The notes under the pieces were generated by a model that saw only the letters and a list, made by a program, of their open reading frames with translations, searched no databases and was not told where the DNA came from. Below, piece after piece: positions 1 through 53,656 of a DNA stretch of 64,000 bases. The translations under genes and the position numbers were made by a program. Position 1 is the stretch's first letter; every line of letters starts with the position of its first letter. This DNA comes from Aurantiochytrium sp. KH105 (lineage: Eukaryota > Sar > Bigyra > Thraustochytrida > Thraustochytriidae). The stretch is taken from contig BGKB01000115.1 of assembly GCA_003116975.1 (NCBI GenBank), positions 68,430 to 132,429 of the forward strand, given 5' to 3'.

Positions 1-3000
1 GTGGTGCGATGGAAGTGTAGCGGCAGCGGCCATGGCGGCAGCAGCAGCAGGAACGAGGAGAGGAAAAGAAAAGTATTTTCCAGGGAAAAAACCAGCAAGG
101 AGTTCTTGCTTGCTGCTTCAAGTTTGCTAGCTTGCTTGCTAGCTTGCTTGCTTGCTAGCTAATAAACGGTCTCACGAGGGCAAGCAAAGCAAAGCAAAGC
201 AAAGCAAAGCAAAGCAAAGCAAAGCAAAGCAAAGCAAAGCAAAGCAAAGCAAAGCAAAGCAAAGCAAAGCAAAGCAAAGCAAGCATGATAATACGCGAGG
301 TGCGAGCAGCCGTTCGTGGCGCACGTTCAAGAAGGCAAAGTTAACCCATTTTTCATCAGGCAGGTGAAGGCTGCAGCTGCAGTTGCAGGCAATCAGTCAC
401 TACAGCCGCAGCCGCAGCCCGCATCGTCGACGCAGTTGCGCCCCAAGGGCTTCCTTCTGCCACTCTGCATCCACCCCAGAAGCATCTCTCTCTCTCTCTC
501 GGAGCATCCTTTCGTCCACCAGACACGCACAGCATCAAGTTTTCACCTATATCTTCGTTCACGTTGAAAAGAAACCATCTTCTTGGCATCGTCGTCGTCG
601 TCGCTTATCTGTCGTCGTCGTCGTCGATCACTTATTCGGCCGCTCACTTGCAGTCGGCCGCTCGCTTGCCCACGCGCTCGCTCACTGTCATGTCAATCCA
701 ATCGATGATCGACCGATCTTTTTTTTTATTCGGTCATTCGCTCGATCGCTCGATCGCTCGCAGTCGCTCGATCGATCAATCGGCTGCGGATTCGGCAACG
801 ACGACGCGCCGGACCCGTAGCTGCCGCTCTTCTCCCTGCCGCTGATACCGCTGCGCGTGCGACCATGCCCCGACCGGGGCCCGACCGGGACGGGATCGAC
901 TGCGATCCGCGGCGCCTTTCTTGCACCGGCGTCAGCCTCTGTCTGTCTGTCTGTCAGTCAGTCAGTCGCCCCGCGGGACTCGCCGTCGCAGTCACTCACG
1001 CATCCAATTTACTACTACACGAAGGAGAATCAGTGACGATGCAACCCAGAGCAGAGCAGCAGCTGCAGCTGCAGGCAAATGGTCCGCGCCCTGCGGTCGA
1101 CGCGTCATGGCCTCGGTGCGCCGCCTGGACTCGCGGGGTGACGCGCGCTTCAGGGCCGCAAGCCTGCTGAGGAGAGGTCGCGCGTGCCTGCCGGGTTTTT
1201 CCCGACAGGCTGACTTTCATAAAGCAACGCTGCACCGCTAGAGCGGCGGCGTCGATACGATGAGGGCGATGTCGATGAGTCGCAGTTGGTTGATGGATCG
1301 ATCCATCGATGCGCATACCTGTTCAGAACCAGCCTCAGGCCAGTGCCGCGCGTCACCCCACACCGCACCTCCCCTCCCGCCGCGCATTGCGGCCCTTTCC
1401 CGCGCCGGATTCTCCACTTGCAGCCGCGGGTTCTCGACTTTCCCGCCGACCGCCCCGCCTCGCTCTGCGGGACTTTGCCGCCCTCGTCCCGGACTCTGTG
1501 GGACCGCTTTCCCCCGCACCCCCTCTCCCACACGCAGTGCCCGCCAGAGCTGCAGCTTCTCCTCCAGCCTTCGCGCGTCGCATACGCCTCGTCCCTCTCT
1601 CCGCTGCTGGCGCCATCACCGCCCCGTCCTCCTTCTGCCTGCCTATCTGTGCACTGCGTGTGCAGACGTGGCCGCTTGCGTCGTGCGGCGCGCGCCCTTC
1701 CCGCAACGGCGCCCGCAGCCGCGCCAACGACTCTCTCTCTCCTCTGCGCCTCGCCCTCCCTCTCTCGCTCCCTCCGCGACGAGTCCCTTTCCCGCCACCA
1801 GCCCCGGATCTACGAGGGAGAACGGGCCACAGAGGAGGAAAACGGGAGAAAACTGCACGCAGCTGACCCCCGGCTGCGCAGGCACCGGACCCGGCGGACG
1901 TCGTGTACTGACACCAAGTAAGCGACTAGCGTCTGGTAGGAGCGAAACCGGCGCGCGCGCCGGGCGGCCGGCCGACCGGCCGCGGGGGGGTTGTATGGCT
2001 TTGCTAGGGCTATTCCTAGGGGGTGCGCGTACGTACGCCGCGGGGCGCCTCGCGTCGTCTTTCTCGTGGGAACAATGCCAAAAAAAAATAAAAAGTAAAA
2101 AAATGCACAAGCCAGACTGGTCGCTCGGCTGGGACGGGTTTTTGGTTTTTCTCCTATTCCTGCCGCCTGCCGGCTGGAGACCGTGCCGACGGTGCGCCGC
2201 ACGCCTCGCGCGGCCCTGCGGTCGGTCGCCAGCCAGGTGCGGTGGGCAGCTCCTCGCAGCTGCACTGGCTGCGTAGCTGCAGCTGCAGCGCGGCGCTGCG
2301 CGGCGCGGCGCAGGCGGCTCGGGGCAGGGTTCGGAGGACGGCCAGGACGCGCACAATGATCATAGGACATAAAAACCCGCCCCGCCGAGGCGCCGAGTCC
2401 CGACCCGCCAGGGCGTACAGACAGCCAGCCAGAAGAAAAAGAAAAAAAAGGCGGGGAATAGGGAAGAACTCGGAAAAAAACAAAACAAAAAAAGACAGCT
2501 AGCCTAAAGGGAAAAAAGGAGAGAAAAAGGAGAAGAAAAAAGAAAAAAAAGAAGCAGAAAAGCCAGAAAGGAGGAAGCGCGGAGCAGGGCGGGTCGCGCA
2601 AACATCGAGTTCCGCGCGCACAAGAAGACGCAAGCGGCGCGCGCAAGTACCGACCGCCTCGCGCGCCGCCTCGCCTCCGCCTCGCGCGCTCCCGCCCGGC
2701 CCTCCGCCCGCCCGCCCGCGGCCGCGGCTCGCCCGGCCAGCCGCCGCGCAGAGGCAGGCCTGCACGCAGGCAGGCAGCGGCGCGACGGCGAGACAGACGC
2801 GGGGCCGTGCCTCGGCAACAGACGGCAACAGACAGACGGTGGAGAAAGAAAAAAAGAAAAAAGAAAAAGAAAAAGGGCAAAAGAATTCTTCCCCTCCCTC
2901 GAAAAGAGAGAAAAAGAAGTTCAAATTTGAATTCGAAAAGCGGAAGAGGGAGAAAGGGGGGCGAATTCGAGTCCTAAGCAGGCGCAAGCAGGCAGCGCTC

Positions 3001-3597
3001 CAGCGCGGCCGAGGCAGAGCGCGGCCAAACCCGCAACGCTTCGCTCAGAAACAGGCGAGGCCGCGCCGACTGGCCGTCTCCAGGCAGGCAGCAACAGCAG
3101 CGAAAGCAGAAGCAGCGGCAGGAACGGCAAGGAGGAGGAACACCGGCGGGGAAGAAGACAGACAGACAGACAGGCAGAAAGGCAGAAAGGCAGGCAGGCA
3201 GGCGGCCATCGCATGCGCGCCAGGCACGAGAGACCTGCTGCCAGCACCGAGCTCCCGAGCGCCGCAAAGTCGGCGCGAAGGGCGCGGCCGCGCGGCGAGG
3301 CGAGGCGGAGGTGTCGTTGAGGTGAGGTGAGCGCAGACTGGCGGCGTAACCGCAAGTGACGCGGCCAAGCAAAAAAAAAAAAAACTGGTCAAGGAAAAAA
3401 AAAAGAAAAAGAAAAAACTCTCTCGCGCGCACACGCACACACATCTCCGCGCGGAGACCCAATTTTTTTTCTTTTTTTCCTCTTGCCAGAACACCCAGCA
3501 CGGGCCCAAGTGTACGCGCTTGCACTCGTGCTCGCGCGTGTCAACTCGGGAGTCCGGCCTTAGCAAGCTGTCGAAGCAGAAAGAGCTCGCGGCGAAA
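1..3597. other. Repeat-rich leader without a convincing gene
   Basis: No open reading frame here looks like a protein: the translations are dominated by Arg, Ala, Ser and Pro and change character with each frame, as expected for GC-rich non-coding DNA. The stretch holds a pentanucleotide array near 185, a short CT run near 483-501, polypurine tracts (about 2430-2560 and 2835-2960) and A-rich tracts (about 3370-3420). The last several hundred bases probably include the promoter and 5' leader of the gene starting at 3598. Confidence 0.5.
185..284. repeat. (AAAGC)n pentanucleotide array
   Basis: About 19-20 nearly perfect copies of the five-base unit AAAGC lie in tandem. Just upstream, 118-160 contains a shorter TTGC/TAGC-rich stretch of similar composition. 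Confidence 0.95.
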
Positions 3598-4416
3598 ATG
3601 CGGCGCGCGCTCTTCGTGGCGGCCTCGTCCCAGCACACGGGCAAGACCTGCTCCAGCTCGGGACTCGTGCGCTCGCTCCAAGGTGTCTTTGACCGTGTGG
3701 GCTACATCAAGCCCGTCGGCCAAAAGTCTGTCCAGGTCCAGGCCAGGGAAGGCCTTCGCAGCGTCGATAAGGATGCCCCCATCTTCAAGGAGCTCTTTGG
3801 CTGCGACGCTGACTACGCCGACATGAGCCCTGTCCTCATCAAGAAGGGATACACCAAGGCTTCCCTCGAGGGCCGCATCTCGGCATCGCACGAGCTCCAG
3901 GCCATCGAGGAGTCCTTTGCCCGCGTCCACGACTCGCACGAGTTCACCGTCGTCGAGGGCACCGGCCATTGCGGCGTGGGCGCCAGCGTTGGCCTTAGCA
4001 ACGCCCGCGTCGCTCGCTCGCTCGGCCTCCCCATTGTTCTCGTGCTCAACGGCGGCATCGGCAACACTCTCGACCAGTTTTTCCTCAACAATGGCTTTTG
4101 CAACATGGAGGGAACCTCGGTCCGTGGTGTCATCATCAACAAGGTGCGCCCCGACAAGCTCGAGGAGGTCCAGCACTACACCCAGCGCACGCTCGAGGAG
4201 TACTGCGACGTCCAGGTGCTCGGCTGCATTCCGGATCTTCAGGATCTTGGCAAGCAAGTCCACAAGCTCCGCCCCGAGGACCGCGAGCGCACTGCGATCG
4301 TTGCTGACCATTATGCCCAGCACATCGACATTGAAAAGCTGCTCGACGTCGTCGACCAGCATAACTCGACCCTCCAGGTTACCAACCGCATGGGCTCGGC
4401 CGTTGCCTCCAAGTAA
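3598..4416 (+). CDS. BioD/Pta-N-like P-loop protein
   Basis: This 272-residue protein looks like a stand-alone member of the dethiobiotin-synthetase-like P-loop family (AAA_26), the fold that also forms the N-terminal domain of some bacterial phosphotransacetylases. A deviant Walker A motif SQHTGKT sits at residues 11-17, right at the N-terminus as usual for this fold. A later segment (about 120-150) reads VEGTGHCGVG and then NARVARSLG, which fits the conserved mid-domain region. The ATG at 3598 is the first in-frame methionine and has A at -3; the frame stays open upstream but without an ATG. There is no acetyltransferase catalytic domain, so it is probably not a functional phosphotransacetylase. 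The substrate is unknown; a ligase, regulatory or sensor role is possible. The family call is fairly firm, the function is not. Confidence 0.8.
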   Translation: MRRALFVAASSQHTGKTCSSSGLVRSLQGVFDRVGYIKPVGQKSVQVQAREGLRSVDKDAPIFKELFGCDADYADMSPVLIKKGYTKASLEGRISASHELQAIEESFARVHDSHEFTVVEGTGHCGVGASVGLSNARVARSLGLPIVLVLNGGIGNTLDQFFLNNGFCNMEGTSVRGVIINKVRPDKLEEVQHYTQRTLEEYCDVQVLGCIPDLQDLGKQVHKLRPEDRERTAIVADHYAQHIDIEKLLDVVDQHNSTLQVTNRMGSAVASK

Positions 4417-14858: not shown

Positions 14859-17795
14859 CTACGGCGAGCACAGCTCACGATCGCTGGCAAGACAGGATTC
14901 GCGCACAGGCCCATTGGCCGTCGCATTTTTTAGAGACATGGCAAAATACTCGCCTAGAGACCAGGGCTGCACCATGTTGTCGTAATGGCGCGAGAACGGA
15001 GAACCACTTTGACCAAGGGCATTGACAATGACGGATGCGCCGTCGTCGCCGCTAGCGTCTTTGCCCATGGACATGACTGCTCGAAATGAAGAACCCGCGC
15101 GCTGCTCAAAACTCGGATACGACGACGAGCCGACATTGACAGTCACGTCATCTCCGCCATGCGGCACACGTCGCGAAAAGAGGCAGTCCAAAGGCGTCCC
15201 GGCAAAAAGTTGCGACGCAAAGCAGGTCTCGTGCATTCCAACCGTGCCCCAGGGCTTGACCTTGCCCTCGGCGAGGAGCAAGGCGACGCGCTCCAGCGCA
15301 GCTGTTGCATAGGAGAGACAATCCGCGTCGCTCATGTTTTGCGCGCAAACACTTCCAACGTCTTTAGTGCCATTCGCTGCAGCACGACGAAAGGCAAATG
15401 AGGTGAACAAGGGCACGGTCCAGTACTTGACGCCAGTCTCAGCCTGTGTACTTTGTACAAGCTCCTCGTTCCAAAGGTTGAAAAGACTCGCCTCCACCGA
15501 GCTCACCTTCATCCGATGAGACTTCCAGTCCTCATTCGATGCATGGACGAGAAGATCACACAAATCAACGGCTTCTGGGGCGTTTGACTGACGGCAGGCC
15601 TCGGCCAACACCTCTTGCAATTCTGCCGCGTAAAGACTTGACACATCTTGCTGCACTGCCTGCATGCTTGCAACAGAATGTTTGCCTTGAGGATGAGCGA
15701 GAAGCTCGGTAATACGTTTGGCCCGGTACCCATCCGTCGAATCAAAGTCGCAAGTGGGCGTCAGGGGAAAGCATGGGGGCTGGACGCGATTGTTTGCCGT
15801 CGCCACAAAGCCCTGCTTTGGATTTTTAACCCAAGGCAGGTCCTCAAAGGCAAAATAGTGTTGAGCGCCCCAGTCGTACGAGCCGTTTCCAGGTACAGGA
15901 AAGACGCCAGTGTGGCCCTTTACACGCATAGGAAATCGACCCGTCATCTGGTACGCAATATCCTTGTGTGTAGCCATGACAAAATTCTGGCCTGGAGCCA
16001 CAAGGTACTTGAGCGCATCCGTGCGAGCCTCGTCGATTGTGCGGGCACGACACATGCGCATGAAAGCCACAAGAGTGGTGTCAAAATGCTCTGGCTCGTC
16101 GGCCAAAAGCGAGGTCCACCGCAGCGCAACCGTATTATTGCCCAGTCGCGTCGCAGCGTCTCCCACTCGCGTTCTCAAAATCGTGTCGGGGAGGTTGTGA
16201 TCGGAAATAACAGGGCCGTAGTGCGGTGCGGTGCGAATGGCCACACGACGAAGGGCTGACTCGCCTGCAACGCCAAGGCTCTCTGTACGGGTTTGTAAGA
16301 GCACCTTTGAACCATTGTGCATGTAGGCGGATCCGGAGTCTACGGTTTGCAAGACAAAAAGATCCTGAACATCGGCTCCGGTGTTGGTGACGCCCCAAGC
16401 CAGATGGGCATTGCGACCCAATACGACAAAGGGAACTCCAAGAAAGCATGCGCCAATCACATTGACATCTTGGGCTGGGTCTTTGAGATGCATGAGTAGC
16501 CAGACATTTGGGGCCGTCAACTCAAGGTGCGGGTCATTGGCCAACAAAGGCGCTCCGCTTTGCGAAAGGTCACCGCTCACGACCCAATTGTTGGAAGCGC
16601 CCGAAATGCCAAGGGCGTTTCCCGGGCGAAAATCCCACACTGACCTCGAGGATTTCGCCAGGTCCCTCTTGGAGCCGGCCTGCGTGGCGCGAAGGGAATT
16701 GAGCCAAGCCTTCATTTCTGGGTCTTCCATGCAAGTGGCATTGTCGTGGCTCGTGTGAGGATCCTGACAAACGTCTTCGGGCTGCAAAATGGTCGGGAAG
16801 TCGGTGAGGTCAAAGGCGGGAAGCAGCTCGTTCACACGGTCCACAGAGAGGCCCTGATCGGCAATGAGCTTGAAGCGCATCATCTCGCGTTGCAAGTTGC
16901 CCGACAGCCCATAGGACATGACCAAGACCCAAGCGATCGAATCTGCAGGAGTCCACGGTTCCAACTGCCAAGGAAAGGGAGTCTGAAAGAGAAAGGAGAG
17001 CAAGATGAGCTCGAGTGGCGCAGAGAATCGCTGCTGAGACGTAAAAAAGTGATTGACGCCGTCACAGAATCGCCCAAGATTTAGAATCTCTTCCTCAAAG
17101 CGCGGGTCTTCTCGCATGCGCGCATACGTTTGCTCTGCAACTCGCCCAAAACCGAGCGTGCGAAAGAGAGTGTCTTGAGGCACAGCTGCAGCGCCCGCAA
17201 CCTCTGCGAGCTGTCCGCGTGCCAAGCGGCGCTGGAACTCCATTTGAAAGGTGCGCGTTTGAGCCATGACGAGGCCCTGCGCGAAAAAAAGATCCCCTGC
17301 GTCATCGGAGCTTGACTCAATGTGGACAATTCCGGTCCCGTCTTCTATATATACCTTGACAACGCCCGAAATGTCGGCGTCAGGACCAAGAGAGAAGGCT
17401 TCCGAGATCAACGCGCGCTTGTAGATCCAAATGGATAGGGTTACAGTGAGCAGCGCGCACAAGGTCCCAAAGAAGAGCGCAAATCGTTGACAACAGGTGC
17501 GTGGTCCCCCTTTTCTCAAGATAACAACAACGAAACTTGCATCCCCGATCGCAAGGATACTTAGCGCAACGCCGAACGCGCGAGGGCAGAGTAACGCCAA
17601 ATGTAGCGTATGACCCGCAAGATAGAACCACGCCACGGCGCAAAGCGTCGCTGCTACCTTGGCAATCGTGACATGTTTCCCATTTCTGCGCGGCTCCTCC
17701 ACGGCCGTAAGGCCTGCGAACTTGCGCTCTTTGCTTCCCTCTGGATCGAGCAGGCGCGCGTACACCGCGACGTCCGCGCTGCTGTTTGACAGCAT
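14859..17795 (-). CDS. Membrane-anchored penicillin-amidase (S45) family N-terminal-nucleophile hydrolase
   Basis: The 978-residue protein belongs to the penicillin acylase family, whose members cleave amide bonds (penicillins, acyl-homoserine lactones, N-acyl amino compounds) after self-processing into two chains. The sequence shows GASNNWVVSG with the predicted nucleophile Ser401 after Gly399-Ala400, followed by LLANDPHLEL (417-426), the classic S45 pair. An alpha-chain-like segment lies upstream, including GIVHIESSSDDAGDLFFAQG (about 155-174) and MEFQRRLARGQLAEVAG (185-201). The N-terminal 130 residues contain about three hydrophobic helices (roughly 47-70, 73-94, 106-126), so the catalytic part is probably held at a membrane, facing the lumen or outside. 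Bacterial relatives usually have only a signal peptide. The real substrate is unknown. Confidence 0.9.
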   Translation of the reverse strand: MLSNSSADVAVYARLLDPEGSKERKFAGLTAVEEPRRNGKHVTIAKVAATLCAVAWFYLAGHTLHLALLCPRAFGVALSILAIGDASFVVVILRKGGPRTCCQRFALFFGTLCALLTVTLSIWIYKRALISEAFSLGPDADISGVVKVYIEDGTGIVHIESSSDDAGDLFFAQGLVMAQTRTFQMEFQRRLARGQLAEVAGAAAVPQDTLFRTLGFGRVAEQTYARMREDPRFEEEILNLGRFCDGVNHFFTSQQRFSAPLELILLSFLFQTPFPWQLEPWTPADSIAWVLVMSYGLSGNLQREMMRFKLIADQGLSVDRVNELLPAFDLTDFPTILQPEDVCQDPHTSHDNATCMEDPEMKAWLNSLRATQAGSKRDLAKSSRSVWDFRPGNALGISGASNNWVVSGDLSQSGAPLLANDPHLELTAPNVWLLMHLKDPAQDVNVIGACFLGVPFVVLGRNAHLAWGVTNTGADVQDLFVLQTVDSGSAYMHNGSKVLLQTRTESLGVAGESALRRVAIRTAPHYGPVISDHNLPDTILRTRVGDAATRLGNNTVALRWTSLLADEPEHFDTTLVAFMRMCRARTIDEARTDALKYLVAPGQNFVMATHKDIAYQMTGRFPMRVKGHTGVFPVPGNGSYDWGAQHYFAFEDLPWVKNPKQGFVATANNRVQPPCFPLTPTCDFDSTDGYRAKRITELLAHPQGKHSVASMQAVQQDVSSLYAAELQEVLAEACRQSNAPEAVDLCDLLVHASNEDWKSHRMKVSSVEASLFNLWNEELVQSTQAETGVKYWTVPLFTSFAFRRAAANGTKDVGSVCAQNMSDADCLSYATAALERVALLLAEGKVKPWGTVGMHETCFASQLFAGTPLDCLFSRRVPHGGDDVTVNVGSSSYPSFEQRAGSSFRAVMSMGKDASGDDGASVIVNALGQSGSPFSRHYDNMVQPWSLGEYFAMSLKNATANGPVRESCLASDRELCSP

Positions 17796-50351: not shown

Positions 50352-53300
50352 TTAGTTGCAGCCAGCACGCTCGATTCGCGCAGTAAGCTCATCGTAAAAA
50401 CCCTTGGCCAGATAAAGACGACGCTGGAAAGGCATGGACTCGACGGTAGCAAAAAGATCCGCAGCATTTGGAGGCGCCGAGTCAATGTAGGTTTTGAAAT
50501 TGGCAAAGCCAGGACGATCCGTCTCGCTCTCATGCACGAGCAAGATTGGCTTCTCCATTTCGAGCGCCGTAGAGAGCTCCATGCGCACCGCAGCCGACGT
50601 AAAGACGGTCTTGGAAAGGAACAAAAGATAGCACCTGGAGTCCTGGATCCCACGCCGCATCTCCGCCTCGGCAAGGTTGCCCTCGCTCTCCTGATCAACC
50701 CAGACACGCACACCACGGTACTTTAGCTTCTCTGCCATGAGGTTGCACGCGTCACCGGCTTCGATCTGTCGATGGCTCAGGAAGACGTGATATTTGAAAG
50801 CAGAATCGAGCGCCATGGCCAATTGCGGCGCGCCATTGTCATGCACATCCTCAGTAAGCGAACCGTCGACAAAGAAGGGCTCAAAGTCCGCCACCTGTGC
50901 ATTTGCTGTCCCCGTGGACATGACTTTGTCACGATTCGCATCTCGCGCTTTTGTCAGGTCATCGAAAGACACGAATATAGAGGGATCTCTGGGGCACTGC
51001 AAAAGCAGCTCCCAGGGAAGGTCTTGGAAGACCGCATCGCGCGCACCCTGAAACATGCTGATCAGCATTTTGAGCGTACTGGCTGGCTGCTCCGTACCGC
51101 CTGCTGCGCGAAGCCAAATTTGATCGTCCTCCACTTGGAGCGCAAAGACAGAGAGCCCAAAACGAACAATGGCTTCTGTGGCGGCAAGCTGCGGCTCTCG
51201 GGTGCCCTCGCTCATCTTGCTACTATGTTCAGCGCAGAGGGACAGGATGCGTGCGAAGACGCCATCGGGAAGAAAAAAGCGCGAAAAGTCGAGGACGCAC
51301 GTCAGGCCCAGTGGCATGCCGGCGATTTCGGAACGAAGCGCATCATCTTCAGCATGGTTGAGAAGGCTGCTCACAAGAAAGGTCTGCTCGGCACCTTCTT
51401 GCGCCGCGCTGCCATCCTCAGAGAAGGACCATATGGAGAGAAGCATGGTGGCGCGCATAAAATCCAATAGATATTCGACTTCTTCGCCATTCCAGAGAAA
51501 ATGAAAGAGCCGACGCGAGCCAATGCCTCGAAGCCGCAAATGATCAAAATCGTCCTCAAGGTCGAGATCAGAAAGCCTCTCGTCGTAGTAAATGTCCTTG
51601 ACGTGGATCTCGTCCGCAATGACTCGGGCCAGCTTGTCCAAGAGCCACTGTGGGTTTAGCACGACCTTGTCGTGCAGCGTATCGGTGGCACGCAGATGCA
51701 CAAGCATGCCAAGCTCGTGGAAAAATTTGAGTAGCTCATCTGACTGGTCGCCGGCGTGGTACTTGGTCGCCAACTCCTGCACTTTGGCAAAGGGAACGTG
51801 GTCGCGGTTCAATTTCATGAGATCATCCAAGACCTTGAGCCAGCGCAGCGAGATCTTTTGCGACACAGCCTCAAGTTTGGATGCCGCTTTCTCCACAGCA
51901 GCGCGCAGATCCGCAGCGCGGTTCGCTGCGGGACTCATGTTATCAATGGGGGAAAAACTCAACCGAGCCCCACTGTTTTTCACCAGCTTGATTCCGCGCA
52001 GCTTACGAAAGAGGGACTGGAGAATTCTCTCGACGGCTTGCAGGCTGCTGGAAGCTTGATCGTAATGCGTTGCGACCAAAAGAACAGGAGCTTTGGTCGC
52101 GTGCAGCTTGATTGAGTTGAGCCAAAAATGCAGATACTCTAAAGCTTTGTCTTGCTCGGTGAGGAGTTCCTGCATGTCAAAGACGAGCATGAAGACGCCG
52201 CCCTCGCGCGTGAGGAAAATGTGGTGCAGCGCGTAAAAGACGTCCTGACCTGCATAGTCCCAGATTGTAAACTTGATCTTCTGGCCCGACTGCGTCTTGC
52301 CGGCCATGTCCTCGATCTCCGCATATTCGAACCGCTGCGCCATCTCGGCCTCGGGCACCAGCTCCACCTGCTCCGCTGCAACGAAGGGCCGCGCCGCAGA
52401 GGAACGTCGACGAACGGCATTTGCAATGCCGCGAGACACGCGCCTGGGCAGCGATTGCCGCTTCTTGCTCGCCGCTTGCTCCTGCGCGGCCATGCGAAGC
52501 GCCGCCACGCGGTAGGCCTGGCTTTCAAATCCGCTGTCGAATTCCTCTTCCCGCCACGATTCTGCATCGGTGCGCTTGAGCTCGACGCCCACCGTCGAGA
52601 TGTGCTCCGCCACAGGCGGCATGCCCAGCAGCGAGCGCACCGTGGACGTCTTGCCGGCGGCGCCCTGGCCGACGACCATGAGCTTGCAGCGGCCCAGTTC
52701 TGCGGGGTCCCCGTTCGCCAGCGCCGCCTTGAGCGCCTCCTCCGCCGCCGCAGTGGTCGCGGGGCCGCCGAGCACTTCCTCGATGGGCCGCATGGCCTCC
52801 CAGCCGAACAGCACGCGCGCCGAGGCGCCCGCCTCCGCGTCCCAGATGCGCACGCTCCTGTCGTCAGATCCGCTCACGATCTCCGACCCCAGGAGAGAGA
52901 CCGAAAAGACCGTCTTCGAGTGTCCTCGCAAGACGTGCAGCGCGTCTCCGCTGCGCGCGTCCCAGACTCTGACCGTGTTGTCGAAGGACCCGCTCACGAC
53001 GAGGCCCTCCTCGAGCGCGACAGAGCGCACCGTGTTGGTGTGCCCTTCGAGGACGTGGACGAGGTCGAAGGAGGGCACGGCGTAGACCCTCACCTTGTTG
53101 TCGTCGGACCCGCTCACCATGTGCTGCGCGTCGATCGCGACCGCCCAGACCGTGCCTGTCGCCTCCGTGAGGACGTGGCGTGGGCCGCCGCTGGCCCGGT
53201 CGAAGACGCGCACGGTCTTGTCGTCCAACGCGGCCACGAGCAGGTTCTCGTGGGCGGCAACGCCCCAGACCTTCGCCCGGCGTCGACCTTCAAGGTCTCT

Positions 53301-53656
53301 CGGCCGCTGATCTTGTCCCAGACGCGGACGGTGTGGTCGCCGTACCCGCCGCCGGAGATGATCTCGTTGCCGTCGAAGACGACGCTCAAGACGGCATTGG
53401 TGTGGCCCTGGAGGGCGTGCAGGACGGAGGCGGTGGCCAGGTCGATCAGGAAGAGGCCGCCGTAGCCAGTTCCCACGGCGGCGAGGTTGCTCTGCACGGC
53501 CACAGCGTTGGCCCTCTTGTTGTTGGGAATCTTCATCTCCAGGACGAGGGCGCCGTCCTCCTTGCTCCACGCGCGCAGGTATACGTCGAAGCTGGCAGCC
53601 AGCACGAGGTCGGCGGACTGCGCGACGCTCACCACGGCGCCTTCGATGCGGCCCAT
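50352..53656 (-). CDS. WD40-ROC-COR-TIR protein (Roco family), frameshifted in this assembly
   Basis: The gene encodes about 1,101 residues if one base is added to a three-G run at 53276-53278; as written, residues 1-126 and the rest are in different frames. Residues 1-285 form a WD40 propeller (HTVRVWD, KTVRVFD, NTVRVWD, RSVRIWD). A ROC GTPase follows: P-loop VGQGAAGKT (329-337), a long basic insertion (about 365-445), DYAGQ for the DxxG switch (467-471), and ATHYDQ in place of TKxD (529-534). A COR-like region spans about 600-860 (VVLNPQWLLDKLARVI). A TIR domain ends the chain (about 955-1045: YHVFLSHRQ, VRVWVDQE, SRCYLLFLSK). Glu997 aligns by eye with the catalytic glutamate of SARM1-type TIR NADases. 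The ATG at 53656 directly precedes the first propeller strand. A signalling or cell-death/immune switch is inferred from the architecture. Confidence 0.88.

Follow-up and report, generated by a model that had tools for sequence, protein, structure and literature searches.

The window analyzed here, a 64,000-nucleotide stretch of the Aurantiochytrium sp. KH105 genome (contig BGKB01000115.1), carries on its minus strand a WD40-ROC-COR-TIR gene (50352..53656) that is a member of a large paralogous family. The family probably encodes diversifying cytosolic receptors in which a propeller serves as sensor, a ROC-COR tandem as switch and a TIR domain as effector; the window copy itself is inactivated or mis-assembled. 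The gene runs from an ATG at 53654-53656 to a TAA at 50352-50354 (all window features given below are likewise on the minus strand). The frame opened by this ATG leaves the WD40 repeats near 53276, at a one-base break, and the remainder of the chain is read in another frame. The break lies where the fourth WD40 blade begins (53276..53279); here the window has GGG and the related copies L002 and L004 have GGGG, and it is either a real frameshift or an assembly error. Pfam detects WD40 in both the long (3e-22) and the short (1e-6) frame piece, followed in the long piece by Roc (3e-19), COR, matched as COR-A (4e-13), and TIR_2 (9e-13). The original prediction had placed these four domains, in this order, in a single chain; the profile searches bear out the domains, strand and coordinates, but the chain occupies two frames, not one.

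Searching the assembly (76.0 Mb, 367 contigs) with a 974-residue piece of the protein returned 48 matches, two of them parts of one gene. Counting the window gene, there are thus no fewer than 47 copies, spread over 39 contigs, and more may exist, as 47 of 731 candidates were scored. The other copies are 64-94 percent identical to the window gene. Ordinary small GTPases occur in pairs on two contigs, with equal or nearly equal scores, and contig C106 carries the stretch adjoining the window gene at 98 percent identity. Both haplotypes are therefore present in the assembly, and the copy count does not refer to a haploid set. COR-A matched 124 places in the genome (116 above the cut-off) and TIR_2 at least 150, all above the cut-off (150 of 258 candidates scored). 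Forty of the 47 copies were analyzed (20 from the search and 20 fetched, the seven others being left out), and in 36 of these the frame is open from WD40 to TIR. The four broken copies are that of the window (L001), L005, which is interrupted by one TAG, L008, which has lost its 5' part and contains two TAG codons, and L049, with a frame change in the second blade. Five sequences are incomplete where the gene extends outside the stretch taken, at the start (L047, L053 and L058) or at the stop (L057 and L061).

The variation among the copies is concentrated at particular positions of the seven-bladed WD40 propeller (52806..53656, in two frames in the window). In the alignment of 36 open copies the median entropy of the propeller is 0.31 bits, yet 32 positions exceed 2 bits. 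A hot set of 24 landmark positions was defined as the residues flanking a conserved Val in all seven blades (V-1, V+1) and a conserved Asp in five (D-1, D+1), no Asp landmark being set in blades 1 and 2. In the window, the pairs around Val are located at 53630..53638 (blade 1), 53387..53395 (blade 3), 53265..53273 (blade 4, placed by the same rule from the sequence), 53145..53153 (blade 5), 53025..53033 (blade 6) and 52905..52913 (blade 7), and those around Asp at 53333..53341, 53217..53225, 53097..53105, 52977..52985 and 52857..52865 (blades 3 to 7, respectively). Mean entropy is 2.58 bits at the hot positions against 0.41 in the rest of the propeller (Mann-Whitney p 1e-14). When all positions of the protein are ranked by variability, the top 10 include 9 from the hot set, the top 20 include 12 and the top 30 include 16. 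Among the 60 most variable positions 26 lie in the propeller, 18 of them in the hot set; the remaining eight (23, 27, 49, 65, 66, 106, 209 and 249) adjoin it or sit in blades 1 or 2. The 36 copies carry 34 different combinations of 22 hot residues. V-1, V+1 and D-1 agree in place with the binding hot spots R1-2, R1 and D-1 of the top face, as given in the available part of PMC3419727.

The hot codons also stand out by their ratio of nonsynonymous to synonymous change (dN/dS). By pooled pairwise counting over 630 pairs, it is 2.47 at the 24 hot codons (2.69 over 48 close pairs), 0.72 in the rest of the propeller and 0.66 in the linker, and declines further through the ROC insert (0.33), the rest of ROC (0.25), COR (0.19) and TIR (0.12). 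This pattern of variation makes the predicted receptor logic well supported.

Downstream of the propeller, the predicted switch has the hallmarks of a Roco protein, namely a Roc GTPase domain followed by COR. The P-loop GQGAAGKT (52647..52670) lies near the end of the 5' half of the gene, which has low silent divergence, and is followed by the switch II motif DYAGQ (52245..52259), a G4-like motif VATHYDQ (52056..52076) and the COR-A region (51597..51845), matched both by Pfam and by profile to 3dpu, which we take to be the Chlorobium tepidum Roco (positions 298-637 of profile A2 align to chain 192-519). Walker A is kept in 35 of the 36 open copies, and DYAGQ and [TS]HYD in all 36. The long basic insertion that had been pointed out between P-loop and switch motif is indeed present (approximately 52296..52580), and most of it has a predicted local distance difference test score (pLDDT) below 50 in the model (398-460 of L002). 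The Pfam model for COR-B matches all five bacterial Rocos L065-L069 and is absent from the best 25 of 37 matches in the window and from the matches listed for L021, L022, L024 and L025. Matches to the full model in a structure search were filled by propellers, spanning residues 2-277. The sensor-switch-effector design had been likened to that of NLRs. The paralogous family, the diversifying propeller face and the preserved switch motifs and TIR domain support such a design, but the protein is not an NLR, because its NTPase appears to be a Roc domain and not the NACHT or NB-ARC of NLR (STAND) receptors (judged from the best 25 of 37 Pfam matches). NB-ARC matches two places in the genome, neither of them the window gene.

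The C-terminal domain (Pfam match at 50478..50786) has a TIR fold. Structure comparison ranks SARM1 and TIR-1 first, and profile comparison ranks TIR-1 first. The predicted catalytic Glu, the equivalent of that in SARM1 and TIR-1, is the one in the motif VRMELSTAL (50577..50579), Glu1027 in the numbering of the original prediction. It is present in 36 of 36 copies, is invariant in a 47-row alignment (A1), has an invariant equivalent across 12 TIRs of several architectures from the same genome, aligns by profile with the catalytic Glu of Caenorhabditis elegans TIR-1, and lies in a model helix (76-87) corresponding to helix C. Glu997, which had been proposed as the counterpart of the SARM1 catalytic residue, lies 30 residues before it in a column with Glu in only 26 of 36 copies; the alignment of the 12 TIRs, the profile alignment to TIR-1 and the counts over 36 copies rule it out. 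That the TIR domain recruits partners as a scaffold, and is not a hydrolase of nicotinamide adenine dinucleotide (NAD), is somewhat unlikely, given the rank of SARM1 and TIR-1 and the invariance of the Glu.

We envisage that the top face of the propeller would bind a ligand that varies, probably a non-self protein, as the location of the variation suggests. Binding would be passed to the ROC-COR GTPase, altering its guanosine triphosphate (GTP) or oligomeric state, by analogy with other Roco proteins. This change would cluster the TIR domains, which, judging from their fold and conserved Glu, may then hydrolyse NAD or turn it into a signal, and so set off defence or death. GTP switching, NADase activity and the choice between immunity and allorecognition are what we infer beyond the variation itself.

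Several observations bear on homogenisation and recombination in the family. Silent divergence is 0.07-0.18 in codons 1-360, 0.25-0.36 in codons 361-520 and 0.49-0.69 beyond. Pairwise distances in the two halves are uncorrelated (Spearman 0.07), and only 7 of 36 copies have the same nearest neighbour in both. L016 and L061 have a common sensor and different bodies, the 3' data rejecting their grouping as a clade (p 1e-5); L015/L051 is borderline in the same test (p 0.051). A special constraint on silent sites in the 5' half is unsupported, as three pairs with the same sensor are about equally diverged at 5' and 3' four-fold sites. Evidence for shuffling of single blades is weak: five four-residue sets are shared, where 1.9 would be expected and shuffled data give as many as 10.

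The window locus itself is a mosaic. The haplotype on C106 contains two tandem genes, L004 and L002, and that of the window only one. The 5' flank and propeller of the window gene are closest to L004 (84 percent over 1105 bases and 95-99 percent, respectively), and the region between propeller and COR is near both. From inside COR to TIR the gene follows L002, at 95-100 percent identity against about 50-76 percent for L004. The 3' flank at first also resembles L002 (91 percent over 882 bases) and farther on neither of the two. This is the pattern that unequal crossing-over within the gene would leave.

The same mechanism could serve self/non-self recognition in encounters between cells of one species instead of pathogen recognition. 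While rather unlikely, such an allorecognition role would accord with the difference in copy number between haplotypes at the window locus, and with the differences between alleles. Among seven pairs taken as allelic (five by their distance to a shared small GTPase, L063/L064 and L009/L010 by sequence or flank likeness), four differ at 16-20 of 22 hot residues, with 3' parts differing by 3-5 percent; the remaining three differ at 0, 0 and 3. Sensor swaps are not demonstrated for the four differing pairs, as the approximately unbiased (AU) test does not reject sister 5' scaffolds (p 0.148-0.596; the group tested for L050/L055 included L045), and change in place is possible. Allorecognition is also favored by a likeness to the Podospora NWD/HNWD family of NACHT-WD40 NLRs, to which the allorecognition genes HET-D/HET-E belong and in which the same four WD40 positions are diversified. 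According to the available sections of PMC1805685, codons 7, 9, 25 and 27 of the Podospora NWD repeat are positively selected around the constrained codons 8 and 26. In both systems two residues flank a constrained site before strand a and two flank another in the b-c turn, so that, by our own reading of their places between strands d-a and b-c, codons 8 and 26 would correspond to Val and Asp here. The spacing of the constrained pair is 18 codons in Podospora and, for most blades of the present family, 16 residues; the match is thus one of place in the fold, not of counting. The excerpts available (PMC1805685; PMC2873952) also describe het-d/het-e as a multi-gene family with repeats homogenised by recombination and with broken copies. 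The four diversifying positions per WD40 unit of HNWD/HET-E proteins therefore seem to recur in this family, but their NACHT upstream of WD40 does not: the sensor is N-terminal with seven blades, and ROC-COR and a C-terminal TIR stand in the place of NACHT and HET. Against allorecognition, simple toxicity of allele against allele is unlikely because both haplotypes coexist in one cell.

A quite improbable explanation of the hot codons is a targeted mutation mechanism in place of selection on ordinary mutation. It would suit the way in which hypervariable codons adjoin codons that never vary among the 36 copies (GTG at positions 8 and 211), and the sites that hold one third base (T at position 89 in 35 of 36). 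Codon usage was compared among 31 sensors, five near-duplicates being dropped. Where two sensors have the same residue at a hot codon, they encode it differently in 9.1 percent of 1609 pairs; the corresponding figure is 6.4 percent for the scaffold and 41.8 percent for COR-TIR. Star-tree simulations at matched diversity, which ignore the tree, gave 13-16 percent under selection alone, with a nonsynonymous rate of 12-20 times the local silent rate needed to match the observed diversity, and 34-45 percent under codon-wide hypermutation; silent changes are thus not raised at hot codons. However, third-base diversity at hot codons (0.39) is above that of matched selection runs (0.25-0.30) and nearer that of hypermutation runs (0.38-0.49), and selection runs reach the ratio of third-base to first-two-base diversity of 0.71 only at diversity above that observed. 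Since C (0.45) and G (0.41) account for most third bases at hot codons, and exchange of C and G there usually changes the residue, selection is still favored. Codon-wide hypermutation, with the same-residue codon differences against it and third-base diversity not, was retained as a rival. An ordinary expanded signalling family whose WD40 loops vary for want of constraint is very improbable: propeller loops often tolerate change and 4 of 40 copies are broken, but the dN/dS of 2.5 at hot codons against 0.72 around them, when drift alone does not exceed 1, and the rates required in simulation rule out an origin of the variable sites by drift or relaxed constraint.

Several points weigh against the receptor interpretation, beside the third-base diversity just given. 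The family is known from one assembly, and its ligand binding, expression, GTPase and NADase activity are predictions; an NADase requires a conserved Glu, but having one is not enough. The hot-spot rule was set after viewing 17 sequences, so that its test was not blind, and dN/dS was obtained from pooled counts and not from a likelihood site test. A 40-codon window at the P-loop also reaches 1.16 (1.88 in close pairs), on very few changes. Finally, 34 of the 60 most variable positions are found beyond the propeller, some of them clustered near 816-828 and 901-922 (L002 numbering).

WD40 units that vary in a similar way are found in another kind of TIR gene, and the propeller cassette itself recurs in shorter frames. 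L070 (G000:C68:7900-12500, 1-4098) encodes TIR, a NACHT-like P-loop NTPase (Pfam NPHP3_N) and WD40 in that order, and covers 1365 residues of a 1512-residue frame. Its 12 WD40 units beginning GHS or GHT (one GHF unit was omitted) vary most at positions 7, 5, 23 and 21, which flank Val-type and Asp-type positions. Five complete frames at four loci (L071, L072, two in L073, L074) consist of the cassette and a short tail ending in CSIL (three), CSIQ or CLIL. These endings resemble CaaX motifs, which presumably may place the proteins on membranes. Their hot-spot sets differ, except that L072 and one L073 gene have almost identical ones. The tail was found at 13 places, three of them (C26:766458-766568, C137:195056-195175 and C148:38840-38956) roughly 1 kb upstream of WD40-ROC genes, an arrangement expected after tandem exchange. 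We tentatively propose, as a reading less likely than not, that one kind of hypervariable WD40 sensor is common to ROC-COR-TIR receptors, TIR-NACHT-like-WD40 receptors and the CaaX-like sensor-only proteins, with cassettes moving by unequal crossing-over and conversion and the sensor-only genes acting as donors, decoys or partners. If correct, it would describe, in a probably single-celled eukaryote, a receptor system that is diversified at the level of the population and relies on two unrelated nucleotide switches.

Other TIR genes differ in their sensors. L021, L022, L024 and L025 are ROC-COR-TIR genes with no WD40 among their Pfam matches, L042 is LRR-ROC-COR-TIR (COR-A below the cut-off), L035 is ANK-TIR, as is L038 judging from the start of its frame only, and in L031 TIR alone was recognised. 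Several TIR places with frames of 1300-1900 residues also turn up in the WD40 search. Elsewhere in the window, a 978-residue open frame (14862-17795) belongs to the penicillin-amidase family (Pfam 4e-166), in an apparent eukaryote. The genome gave no light-harvesting match.

Among known systems, LRRK2 and the 3dpu bacterial Roco have the same ROC-COR tandem, with profile matches to both, but other sensor and output domains. SARM1/TIR-1 and plant TIR NADases are activated through ARM-SAM or STAND modules, whereas here activation, if any, would go through a ROC-COR GTPase. As described in the accessible part of PMC11378527, the LRR-ROCOs of brown algae, candidate immune receptors, likewise form a ROCO family in which positive selection acts at four positions on the ligand face of each repeat array, but have an exon-shuffled LRR sensor and no TIR, in contrast to the WD40 sensor in one open frame and the TIR found here. 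The same portion of that source reports at most four ROCOs per species in several SAR genomes, including Schizochytrium aggregatum, and a TPR-ROCO-TIR protein in Chondrus crispus; of the compound architecture names looked for in the open-licence literature, ROCO-TIR was the only one found. No paper on a WD40-ROC-COR-TIR protein was found among its titles and abstracts on Roco with TIR, WD40 or protists. A bacterial origin of the whole architecture found no support in one shallow scan of genome contigs, where none of five Roco loci had TIR or WD40, and a shallow plasmid search gave eight records with partial matches covering 27-43 percent of the query.

If the receptor interpretation is true, large diversifying repertoires of intracellular receptors extend to a probably single-celled protist, and the ROC-COR switch, best known from LRRK2, can stand in for the NTPase of NLRs. 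Fungal HET genes diversify at the same four WD40 places, which suggests that the two groups have converged on one recognition surface. With its many natural Roco-TIR proteins, each about 1100 residues long, the family would also allow sensor, switch and effector to be tested together.
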